A program made the translations under genes and the position numbers. Positions 51,788-55,639 of a stretch of 64,000 nt of DNA are shown piece after piece. Location: NCBI GenBank assembly GCA_014695345.1, contig JACJOC010000065.1, positions 124,001 through 188,000 of the forward strand, in the 5' to 3' direction. Positions within the stretch are counted from its first letter, which is position 1, and each line of letters opens with the position of its first letter. The notes beneath the pieces were generated by a model that saw only the letters and a program-made list of their open reading frames with translations, searched no databases and was not told the DNA's origin. This DNA comes from Cyanobacteria bacterium FACHB-471 (GTDB lineage Bacteria; Cyanobacteriota; Cyanobacteriia; Elainellales; Elainellaceae).

Positions 51788-52030
51788 TTACCTTTCTGGT
51801 CTGCGATCGCGGGTCAAAATGCTCATCACTTCACCGGAACTCGGAGCGGGTAACAGAGGGCTCCACGCTCCTGCTTCGGCAAAGCCGCGTCCGTGCAAAT
51901 CGTGAATCGTTTCGATTACACCATCGCGAGAGCCAATGATCAGAACCCGCAAGCGTTCGCGTTCAGGAAATTGAGCAGGGGATGGGTTCTCAACGGTTGG
52001 TGAGTTGAGATCGAGAAAACACTCAGGCAT
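51788..52030 (-). CDS. Small hypothetical protein
   Basis: An 80-aa protein with a clear internal pattern 'LRVLIIGSRDGVIETIHDLHGRGFAEAGAWSPLLP' that resembles a conserved cyanobacterial small protein. No membrane helix or metal motif. The repeat-rich region lies upstream of its start. Function unknown. Confidence 0.6.
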   Translation of the reverse strand: MPECFLDLNSPTVENPSPAQFPERERLRVLIIGSRDGVIETIHDLHGRGFAEAGAWSPLLPAPSSGEVMSILTRDRRPER

Positions 52031-52072
52031 CAGTTGTAACTCCGTTTAGGGTTTGCAAGGAAACCCCAAAAA

Positions 52073-52145
52073 CCTAGCCACCCCGCACGCGCTGCCGATG
52101 AGAATTAGCAACGCTTTTTTGACATCACAAGTCGGGGTGGCTAGG
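52073..52145. repeat. Inverted repeat with 47-nt spacer
   Basis: Arms cctagccaccccg (52073-52085) and cggggtggctagg (52133-52145) are perfect 13-bp inverted copies. The spacer contains a short GCG/CGC stem followed by TTTTTT (52115-52120). It could be a structured RNA or a small non-autonomous element. Confidence 0.55.
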
Positions 52146-52406
52146 GGAGTGTTAAAATTCTCCGTTAGCCGCCAGACTGCTCATCCAGTTTGGGGGTTAG
52201 TCGCTCATCGCTGCGCTAACAGCTTTGAGCGGCGCTAGATTTTTGGGTGTAGCAGGTTGTTTGTATATAAAAAAACAACCTTAGCGTGACAGCATATCTG
52301 AGCGAACGGTATCTCGTCAAGGTGGCAAGTTGCAGAGTTTTTGAGAAGAGGGAAGTGGCGATCGCCCTTCGCGCAGGTATTTTTGCTGGAAATTGTAAAC
52401 AAAAAC

Positions 52407-52621
52407 AGGTTTAAGAGTTTTAAACCTTGTTTTTAAAGTTCAAAATAAGATTTACAAGTTTTAAATCAGGTTTTTGAGTTTTAAAGCAAGGTTTACAAGT
52501 TTAAAACCTGATTTTTAAATTCAAAACAAGGTTTACAAGTTTTAAATCAAGTTTTTGAGTTTTAAAACAAGGTTTACGAATTCAAAATTAGATTTTTGAG
52601 GCTGAAATTAGATTTCTGAAG
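52407..52621. repeat. AT-rich tandem repeat array, about 41-bp period
   Basis: About eleven half-units of 18-22 bp, e.g. AGGTTTACAAGTTTTAAATC and AGTTTTTGAGTTTTAAAACA. The 'AGRTTTACRA' half recurs at 52448, 52489, 52529 and 52570, giving a period of 40-41 bp. Copies are degenerate. Not protein coding. Confidence 0.8.
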
Positions 52622-52687: not shown

Positions 52688-55639
52688 TTACTGCTGAAGC
52701 TGCCAAATGATGATTGCAATCACTAATCCCACCGTAAACCAAAATATAAAAGATGTTTTGAACCGTTGAAATAAGCGAATTGAAAAAGCAACCAGAAAAC
52801 TCACTCCAGCCAGGATATCCATCAACCAACCAAACTGCTCTTGAGCTTGAATAAATGACTCAGCCCAGTTTTCGCCCTGCTGCTCAAGGTATTTGACCAT
52901 GCGTTTGGTGATTTCTGGAAGCGGAATCACATTGATCGGCAGATTTAGAGATTGCCAAATCTTCACGGCTGCAACTGTACACTCCCGCATTTTTCGGATT
53001 TTGCCTTGCTGCTGATAAAGATTACTAAGATTCCATAGCGAAATGGCTTCACCCTTGCGATCGCCAATCTGGCACTTAATCTCCAAAGACTGTTGATGGA
53101 AGTCGATCGCCTGCTGGTATTGCCCTAGTGAATAGGACGCACTGCCCAAATTGTCTAGAGAGATAGCTTCACCCTTGCGATTGCCAATCTGGCGCTTAAT
53201 CTCCAAAGACTGCTGATGAAAGTCGATCGCCTGCTGATATTGTCCTAGCGAATTGTACGCATTTCCTAGGTTGCTTAAAGAATTAGCTTCACCACCGCGA
53301 TTGCTAATTTCACGCTGTATGTTTAAGGATTGCTGACAAAAATCGATCGCTAACTGGTAATGCCCTAACGACCCGTACGCAGCTCCTAGCCCGCCTAAAG
53401 AATAGGCTTCACCCTCGTGATGCCCTATCTCGCGCTCAATCTCTAAGGACTGCTGGTAGAACTTAATTGCCAACTGGTATTGTTCCAGCGCATCATAAGC
53501 GATTGCCAGATTGTATAAAGACTTTGCTTCACCACCACGATCGCCTATCTCTTGTGCAATCCATAACCACTGCTTTAAGAAGTTAATTGATCGCTGATAT
53601 TGCCCTAACAACTTGTATACAATCCCCAAGTTACCTAAGGAAGCTGCCTCACCCCAACGATCGCCAATCTCGCGCTGAATCCCCAATGACTGTTGATAGA
53701 ACTCGATCGCCTGCTGATATTGCCCTAGCTCTTGGTACGCATTCCCCAATCCACCTAAGGAACCAGCTTCGCCACTACGATCGCCAATCTCACACCTAAT
53801 TCTTAAAGACTGTTGCTGAAAATCAATCGTCTGCTGATATTGCCCTAATGCACAATACATAGCCCCTAGATTACTCAACGAAAGTGCTTCATCACTTCGG
53901 TCGTCAAGCTCCCTCGCAATTTCATAATGTTGCTGAAAGAAGTCAATTGCTTGCTGATTTTGTCCTAACGAATCGTACACAGTTCCTAAATTACACAGAG
54001 AGAAGGCTTCACCACGGCGATCACCAATTTCGCGCCTAATCTCCAATGATTGTCGTTGGACATTGATTGCCTGCTGGTATTGCCCTAACACACGATACAA
54101 AATCCCTATATTGCTTAACGAAGCTGCTTCACCCCAGCGATCATTAACCTCACGCTTAATCTTTAATGATTGCTCCTGAAAATTGATTGCCTGCTGATAC
54201 TGCCCTAACTCGCGGTAGGTTTCCCCTAGAACTCTACAAACATCAGCATAAATTTGACGCTCTTCTAAAGTGGGATGCCATGTAATATGTAGTTGATAAT
54301 AATAATTAACTAAAAGCTGGTAATATCCTCGCCGATGGAGAAATTTATCACAACTGTACATAGTCTTAAACGCTTTGGAATATTGTCTCAGTTGGCATTG
54401 GTGGTAAAAAACTTCTTCGTATTCAATGGCAGCTTCCCGCGTATCGTCTCTGGCAAATTCAGTTTTACGGCGGCTCCAAAAATAGGTAATAGCGCGTTCG
54501 TGGGCAGGCGTGAGATCACTAGCTCGTTTTTGGACAAATTCTTGAATGCGGAGCTGGAGGCGAAACAGCCGTTGCCCCTGTTGGTTCCGCTCTGATAAGG
54601 TTTGCAGCAAAGAGCGACGCTCCAGGTCATCCAGGTCAGCATCGCTCACGGATGGTTTTATCGATTCCGTCACCAGGGCTGCGGCTACTTCAGCGCTAAA
54701 AGCTCCTCGTAAGACGCTGACCTGGGTTAAAAGGTGCTGGTTTTCTAGGGTGAGGCGATCGATGCTCCACTGCAAGATGCGATCGACACTTACTTGCGCT
54801 TCACCCCGGTGCTTTCCTTCCAGTTGCAGCAAATCGGTGTGCTGACTGAGATGGTTAACCTGACGTTCTCCCGGTCGATATTCTTCTCGCAGCCAGCCTG
54901 CAATTAGCATCAGCGCCAGTGGGTTTCCCTGCACTTGTTCTGATACTGTTGCCAAGTTTTTATTGGTGTCTTCTACCTCCAGGTCTTCCAGCATTGCTGC
55001 GCCTTCACCAGGCTTTAAGCCTTTTTCTAACGTCAGCCAGCGTGATCGCTGCCAGCCAAAATACTTGGGCGGATATTCTCGACTTGCCAGCAGCAGCACG
55101 CTTTCACTGCCCAGATTTTGAAAGCCCTCAAAAAAAGAGTCATAGCCGCTCTGCCATTCGCCTGCTGTGGTCAGCACCGATTCTAGATTGTCGATCGCCA
55201 GCAAATAGCGCCCCTGCTGCAACAGTCGCAACAGTCTCGGAATCAGATCTTTTTCCTCGATTGCTTTCACCTGCTCTGGCAACACACCAAACTCTTGCAG
55301 CGCTCGTTCTGCCAGAGCTGTAATGGAAGTGCCCGTTCGCACGTCTGCCCAAAACTTGCCCGCAAATCCCAGACATTCAGCAAACACCTTTGCGGTCAGA
55401 GTCGATTTACCAATTCCCCCCTCACCGCGAACGCTAGCGATCGAAATTGTCCGATCCGCCAACCAGGTGTTGAGTTCTAATAGCTCAGCTTCTCGCCCTT
55501 GAAACAGCCGCAGATCGGGAACGGGGTCACTATAAATCAGCGCTACTTTCTGGCCTTCGTGAATGGTGATGTTGTTGGTCTGGTTATAGACCGTTCCCTG
55601 ATTCACCACCCCAATCTTTTCAGCGATCGGCTCTGTCAT
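52688..55639 (-). CDS. STAND/NLR-like NB-ARC ATPase with TPR sensor and C-terminal membrane helices
   Basis: A 983-aa protein. Residues 6-26 hold the motif AEKIGVVNQGTVYNQTNN, shared with the upstream protein. The NB-ARC ATPase follows: Walker A GEGGIGKST with Lys78, Walker B 'LLAID' with Asp150, and GNPLAL at 238-243. After a winged-helix-like region come ten 40-residue TPRs (about 466-866, consensus LGQYQQAIDFxQQSLEIxREIGDR) and a degenerate eleventh. The last 48 residues carry two hydrophobic helices. It is likely a signal-sensing switch that assembles on activation. The partner gene ends 31 bp upstream. Confidence 0.9.
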   Translation of the reverse strand: MTEPIAEKIGVVNQGTVYNQTNNITIHEGQKVALIYSDPVPDLRLFQGREAELLELNTWLADRTISIASVRGEGGIGKSTLTAKVFAECLGFAGKFWADVRTGTSITALAERALQEFGVLPEQVKAIEEKDLIPRLLRLLQQGRYLLAIDNLESVLTTAGEWQSGYDSFFEGFQNLGSESVLLLASREYPPKYFGWQRSRWLTLEKGLKPGEGAAMLEDLEVEDTNKNLATVSEQVQGNPLALMLIAGWLREEYRPGERQVNHLSQHTDLLQLEGKHRGEAQVSVDRILQWSIDRLTLENQHLLTQVSVLRGAFSAEVAAALVTESIKPSVSDADLDDLERRSLLQTLSERNQQGQRLFRLQLRIQEFVQKRASDLTPAHERAITYFWSRRKTEFARDDTREAAIEYEEVFYHQCQLRQYSKAFKTMYSCDKFLHRRGYYQLLVNYYYQLHITWHPTLEERQIYADVCRVLGETYRELGQYQQAINFQEQSLKIKREVNDRWGEAASLSNIGILYRVLGQYQQAINVQRQSLEIRREIGDRRGEAFSLCNLGTVYDSLGQNQQAIDFFQQHYEIARELDDRSDEALSLSNLGAMYCALGQYQQTIDFQQQSLRIRCEIGDRSGEAGSLGGLGNAYQELGQYQQAIEFYQQSLGIQREIGDRWGEAASLGNLGIVYKLLGQYQRSINFLKQWLWIAQEIGDRGGEAKSLYNLAIAYDALEQYQLAIKFYQQSLEIEREIGHHEGEAYSLGGLGAAYGSLGHYQLAIDFCQQSLNIQREISNRGGEANSLSNLGNAYNSLGQYQQAIDFHQQSLEIKRQIGNRKGEAISLDNLGSASYSLGQYQQAIDFHQQSLEIKCQIGDRKGEAISLWNLSNLYQQQGKIRKMRECTVAAVKIWQSLNLPINVIPLPEITKRMVKYLEQQGENWAESFIQAQEQFGWLMDILAGVSFLVAFSIRLFQRFKTSFIFWFTVGLVIAIIIWQLQQ

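Follow-up and report, generated by a model that had tools for sequence, protein, structure and literature searches.

A helically phased tandem array in a cyanobacterial genome: a likely row of putative protein-binding sites with relatives upstream of a small-gene family

Introduction

Iteron arrays of plasmid rep genes and operator or centromere arrays of the parC type are direct repeats of about two helical turns, each with a private sequence. In type III toxin-antitoxin systems a tandem-repeat RNA precedes a small gene. STRR and LTRR are tandem repeats of filamentous cyanobacteria, and the passages that deal with them in PMC2670836 and PMC2408588 give them no known function; STRR are usually 7-bp repeats in the corresponding part of PMC2670836. 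An A-tract periodicity of about 11 bp is treated in the relevant part of PMC4132750 as a genome-wide, statistical property.

We describe a tandem array found in a 64,000-nucleotide stretch of the genome of Cyanobacteria bacterium FACHB-471 (the whole stretch is called the window here) and trace its relatives in other loci and genomes. Most likely, we infer, the array is a helically phased row of putative protein-binding sites. It shares with iteron and parC-type arrays the in-phase direct repeats of period 20-21 bp and, in its relatives, a place upstream of a gene that possibly encodes the binder. Unlike iterons, such arrays occur as many chromosomal copies per genome, and no Rep or Par family is among the Pfam and NCBIfam matches of the proteins scanned. 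Like STRR and LTRR, the array is a tandem repeat in intergenic cyanobacterial DNA (PMC2670836, PMC2408588), although its units measure 20-21 bp and not the 7 bp of STRR (PMC2670836), and in the parts of PMC2670836 and PMC2408588 devoted to them neither repeat class is linked to one gene family at a constant position and period. A search of the open-licence literature returned no account of arrays with period 21 that are linked to a family of small genes.

The array in the window

An initial annotation of the window had called an AT-rich tandem array with a 41-bp period, built of alternating half-units of about 20 bp, and both parts of the description are confirmed. The 41-bp dimer is a 20-bp and a 21-bp unit in alternation. 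Tandem Repeats Finder gives overlapping rows with periods of 20, 41, 61 and 81 between 52402 and 52600, and the self-identity of the array is 0.64 at lag 20, 0.67 at lag 41 and 0.75 at lag 81, against a top value of 0.51 over lags 10-99 in 2000 shuffles of 2-mers. AG(A/G)TTTAC units start at 52448, 52489, 52529 and 52570, exactly the four long-unit positions that had been listed, and RTTTTTRA half-units alternate with them at 52429, 52470, 52511, 52551 and 52592. GC content is 0.237, compared with 0.499 for the whole window.

The annotation had placed the array between an NLR gene and an 80-aa gene. That location stands (the array lies between two minus-strand genes, with the stop end of the NB-ARC/TPR gene on one side and the start of the 80-aa ORF, at 52030, on the other), except that the array starts nearer 52402 than 52407; the element that contains it reads on the minus strand, which corrects the earlier description. 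The features are collected in Table 1. A coding repeat is rejected, since there are 5 to 8 stops in each of the six frames, and a CRISPR array is rejected because the units stand head-to-tail with no unique spacers separating them; the annotation had judged the array in the same way on both points. Elsewhere in the window there is a coding repeat of 120 bp (53046-53847, 6.7 copies), which forms the TPR part of the NB-ARC gene. On the other side of the array, the segment 50449-51594 adjoins a different gene in two genomes of the same genus, without the 80-aa gene.

Table 1. Positions in the window of the array and the features around it
Feature	Position	Strand	Remark
Tandem array	52402..52620	.	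about ten alternating 20- and 21-bp units (41-bp dimer)
Conserved array end, GTTTTTGTTTACAATTTCCAGCAAAAATACC on the minus strand	52376..52406	-	alignment of 12 array ends
Block between array and promoter	52321..52401	-	contains GGCGATCGCC and AAAACTCTGCAACTT
GGCGATCGCC	52357-52366	-	inside block
AAAACTCTGCAACTT	52327-52341	-	inside block
Promoter-like TTGACG-18-TATGCT of 80-aa gene	52291..52320	-	consensus match 9/12
Structured leader RNA of 80-aa gene	52062..52250	-	model R2 match, G000:C81:176062-176250, E 1.9e-54
80-aa gene	51788..52030	-	15 close copies in same genome
NB-ARC/TPR ('NLR') gene	52688..55639	-	neighbour, context only; stop end at 52688

Between the array and the 80-aa gene, the promoter-like TTGACG-18-TATGCT is retained in copies that were compared with it. 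Its TTGACG box lies 71-74 bp from the array end in 9 of the 10 loci measured, the tenth having been missed by the search pattern. We read the AAAACTCTGCAACTT block, from its sequence, as a probable diverged form of the AAGTTCTGTAGCTTTAC stretch that belongs to a second gene family, described below. The GGCGATCGCC word, which we take to be HIP1-like, marks the left edge of homology in several 80-aa copies that have no array, and it occurs again just after the stop codon of the 80-aa ORF in several copies; it looks as if the unit may have been exchanged at these sites.

The leader RNA may well be of greater interest than the array itself. Model R2, of 165 positions, matches in 24/36 genomes of the order, with up to 26 matches per genome, and in 71/291 genomes of the class. 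Nine of the 40 consensus pairs in an alignment of 19 sequences have a two-sided change. Rfam gave only microRNA and other matches in the loci scanned, all below gathering scores, and no family for the leader at that score. The last hairpin is terminator-like, with a T-run at its end, and a stretch able to pair with an earlier stem recurs in its left arm. Because of this hairpin and the alternative pairing of its left arm, the leader is likely an attenuator or riboswitch, a candidate suggested by the alignment.

Relatives of the array

In what is said below, G000 is the genome of the window, which lies on its contig C81, and G001 and G002 are of the same genus. A check proposed with the initial annotation was to look for the unit in other genomes, its absence from every relative counting against the element; relatives were found. 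BLAST places the window array at four further places in its own genome, the copy on C3 being in two pieces. A search of 40 genomes, counting G000, gave matches in four, the three genomes of the genus plus G003, where the match is only a stretch of <30 bases. With a model of the array end (R1), G000 has six hits (C81, C117, C102, C32, C3 and, as a relic, C104), G001 has one and G002 has ten; seven other genomes of the same family have none. Over 291 genomes of the class the model is positive in four, namely the three of the genus and G285, from another family, whose array of eleven 20-bp units is a weaker relative of that in the window. Copies of array plus block were absent from the plasmid and phage collections, and one exact pattern was absent from the viral contigs.

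Three of the six G000 arrays (C81, C32, C117) stand 73 bp upstream of promoters of 80-aa genes. In some copies the promoter, a portion of the leader, or the two together are gone; G002:C46 and G001:C145 keep the array with a decayed promoter. At G002:C46 an NB-ARC/TPR orthologue is also near the array. On that side the locus (L014) has the NB-ARC/TPR gene common to the window and G002, and between it and the array are small genes that by eye resemble toxin-antitoxin pairs. In the C3 copy of G000 (L013, 168-430) some 90 bp that carry an inverted repeat, GTAAGGGCAGTT...AACTGCCCTTAC, interrupt the array; to the eye this segment looks MITE-like. The end of a mobile element was rejected as an identity for the array: inspection by eye showed no terminal repeats or target duplications, though G002 has duplicated segments.

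The 80-aa family is multi-copy. Matches occur in 34/60 related genomes, at 79 loci in named genomes (e.g. Leptolyngbya and Nostoc) and in 12 plasmid records. The protein belongs to no Pfam, NCBIfam, PHROGs or PADLOC family; its predicted fold has a strand-helix-strand core, with no PDB match at E up to 0.001. The 80-aa gene was the first candidate for the gene to which the array belongs, but only 3 of the 15 close 80-aa loci in G000 have an array by the promoter, a fourth (C102) having one 535 bp away, and among 55 distant relatives a single one has an upstream array of the period 20-21 series. Array-bearing 80-aa genes do not form one clade: the tree (20 copies and an outgroup, leaving out L084, L085, L089 and L090, which have no upstream sequence, and L086 and L087, which have no motif) requires three label changes, the same as with shuffled labels.

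At G000:C102 and its orthologue G002:C382 the array stands directly before another gene, for a basic protein of 120-150 aa (at C102 a 148-aa ORF from TTG, 124 aa from its ATG), and the G285 array lies upstream of a homologue with 69% identity to the C102 protein. Between array and gene, AAGTTCTGTAGCTTTAC has no mismatches in G285 and C382 and one in C102. Allowing up to 4 mismatches, it occurs in 9/109 loci of this gene family, each time 107-138 bp before the start codon, and in 0/98 downstream controls. The 120-150-aa gene is absent beside the window array. Since the same sequence family precedes that gene at C102 and C382, we take the window array to be an orphaned or reused version of the array that precedes genes of the 120-150-aa family.

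The 120-150-aa family occurs in 61/291 genomes, often in several copies; one homologue lies on contig JAHHHO010000118.1 of Myxacorys californica. Its alignment has a basic C-terminus, and the protein reaches no Pfam or NCBIfam cut-off. A single-sequence structure model gives long helices at low confidence, with no sign of a known DNA-binding fold. No relatives were found in viral contigs and phages, and plasmids gave one record.

As G285, C382 and C102 share the array and AAGTTCTGTAGCTTTAC, these sequences suggest that the unit of array and block stood in front of the 120-150-aa gene before the genus arose, and that its position ahead of 80-aa genes is secondary. In 45 loci inspected, some of them duplicates of one place, the two genes lie side by side on one strand four times (C102, C28, L194 in G020 and L195 in G017). 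At C102 one gene's stop codon overlaps the -35 box of the other, so that loss of the 120-150-aa gene would give the arrangement of the window; such a loss probably took place at the window locus.

Survey of the 120-150-aa family

We surveyed 109 loci of the 120-150-aa family, 30 from the family search and 79 hand-picked down its listing. L251 was dropped because it duplicates the gene of L280, one locus is counted under two handles (L254 and L215), and exclusion of 4 loci with <400 bp upstream left 105 regions. Tandem arrays whose period is 20-21 bp or some multiple of it (counted as 19-22, 40-43, 61-65 or 82-85) lie upstream in 72/105 regions and downstream in 3/91. The upstream place would be of the iteron type if the family protein were the binder; in the window that gene is absent. 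The arrays keep a place about 200 bp before the start codon (median end -204). Upstream, the best self-identity averages 0.593 for lag 21, 0.582 for lag 42 and 0.35-0.39 for the remaining lags printed. The downstream regions average 0.375 for lag 21 and 0.345-0.373 for the rest of those printed. With an identity of at least 0.60 as the threshold, strong arrays number 63/105 upstream and 0/91 downstream. A looser criterion, by which the best lag need only fall in the set, gives 90/105 upstream, yet it also gives 19/91 downstream and is therefore unspecific.

Because many loci are paralogues or close relatives, we counted by clusters as well. There are 37 upstream clusters without mutual alignment, one of which holds 34 regions, and 28 of the 37 carry a strong array. 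The unit letters of distant copies are unrelated and the period stays; the seven survey copies in G207 have, by eye, seven different units. GC content of the family's upstream regions spans 0.33-0.58. Array similarity increases only above about 0.65 protein identity: the mean local score is 26.7 for 35 pairs at 0.65-0.80 identity, 56.6 for the 25 pairs above, and about 16-17 below. Open frames through the family arrays (2.35/6) are as frequent as through permuted arrays (2.38/6), and none is open in 10/63.

The period is not exclusive to the family, and that candidate rule was rejected. In 400 kb of G207 there are 33 tandem arrays of 84 bp or more, 10 of them in the period 20-21 series, and for these 10 no family gene was detected within 1.2 kb; 7 of the 10 are traversed by an open frame. 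In 464 kb of G000, 2/8 longer arrays are in the series, a list that does not include the window array, whose best period there is 81, outside the set used. Since such arrays are found away from the family in both genomes, tandem repeats of some cyanobacteria may take this period generally, with the family as a hot spot. Nine of the 33 arrays in the G207 tiles (L313-L332) have period 7.

These counts bear on the reading that the array is a neutral or selfish minisatellite, made by slippage or unequal exchange and spread with gene duplications, with no job, its 21-bp preference coming from the duplication mechanism. We consider this unlikely, though not negligibly so. Between orthologues, arrays change by whole units of 20 bp, apart from one gap of a single base, and are no better conserved than their flanks (identity 0.76 and 0.86, against 0.85 and 0.82). 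Recent duplications of segments in G002 have taken the array with them, same-series arrays exist away from the family and many 80-aa copies have none. A minisatellite would accommodate all of this. A passenger would not be expected to show the upstream bias and fixed place of the survey, or the 10.25-bp phasing inside the unit that is described next.

Helical phasing, bending and folding

The initial annotation had proposed that A/T tracts in the array are helically phased and that the DNA could bend. The phasing is borne out: the power of AAA/TTT at 10.25 bp is above that of all 200 dinucleotide shuffles, and among column-permuted arrays of the same period it is reached by 0/500 and 1/500. 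Bending fared less well. With the wedge angles used for the prediction, the ratio of end-to-end to contour length of the whole array is low relative to dinucleotide shuffles (9/200 as low), but not clearly below that of equally periodic permuted arrays, 37/500 and 67/500 of which are as bent. For its most bent 125 bp, 41/200 shuffles are as low, and across nine arrays of the window sequence family the number ranges from 0 to 65 of 200.

A promoter element acting by intrinsic curvature of bent, A-tract DNA, in line with the bending that the annotation suggested, would agree with the phasing and with the constant spacing to the promoter. Helically phased A/T tracts close to a promoter are also a likeness to the phased A-tracts of cyanobacterial promoters in the parts of PMC9825172 and PMC4132750 that treat them, the former coupling phased A-tracts to promoters in Synechocystis. 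The window array differs in being made of tandem units, and the A-tract periodicity is not tied to a gene family in those parts. The permuted arrays that reach the predicted bending argue against curvature as the agent, and other family arrays are not AT-rich; as their units are unrelated and their regions have GC 0.33-0.58, A-tract bending is not a general principle of these arrays. We give the curvature reading a slim chance and keep bending as a side effect.

An RNA element would require that the array be transcribed and its repeats folded or cut to short RNAs, by analogy with type III toxin-antitoxin systems, which likewise have tandem repeats before a small gene. Both strands of the window array do fold better than dinucleotide shuffles (z -5.1 and -4.4). 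However, 28 family arrays have fold energies near those of permuted arrays (mean z -0.38 and -0.69; 3 and 4 below -1.5) and so share no fold, and dyad symmetry is not general among them. Hairpins across units were rejected: the pairing excess is found at one position only (5/2000 shuffles as high, against 760/2000 at the other), in a test that is biased by the alternating extra A. The array also stands upstream of the promoter-like site, and no toxin family was matched for either small protein, both unlike type III systems. Such an element would be very improbable here.

Discussion

A row of proteins lined up along a single face of the DNA would, we infer, require just this: a period kept at two turns of B-DNA, with the sequence free. 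The 20-bp unit steps, the spacings between units (19-21 bp in 91/95 cases) and an A/T phasing beyond what the period alone gives are consistent with such a row. Each unit would be a putative docking site, and the sites would face one side of the helix. A protein, in the simplest case the 120-150-aa product acting in trans from C102 or from a paralogue, would coat the array and control the adjacent promoter. At its own locus this would amount to autoregulation, and at C81, C32 and C117 it would make a small regulon of 80-aa genes. Taken jointly, that the window array is a copy of the 120-150-aa family's upstream array, that its units are docking sites and that a protein there controls the adjacent promoter, we give this reading an even chance. 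Weighing against it are a conservation no higher than that of the flanks, the small number of 80-aa loci with an array at the promoter, the arrays of the series outside the family, the arrays that outlived their promoters, dyad symmetry that is not general, and a protein model with no sign of a known DNA-binding fold.

In a further variant each paralogue would read an array beside its own gene, a private address in which the geometry of protein and DNA fixes the unit length at two helical turns and the sequence drifts. We hold this with low confidence; if it were true, orphan copies would recruit other small genes into the regulon of that paralogue.

The constancy of the period in regions that do not align, with the sequence free, points to a rule of DNA geometry and not of letters. 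If a small protein reads the array, these genomes would each contain several self-addressed DNA-binding systems, each complete with its operator, that are unnamed in the family libraries searched. If nothing reads it, the question becomes why tandem duplication here prefers two helical turns.
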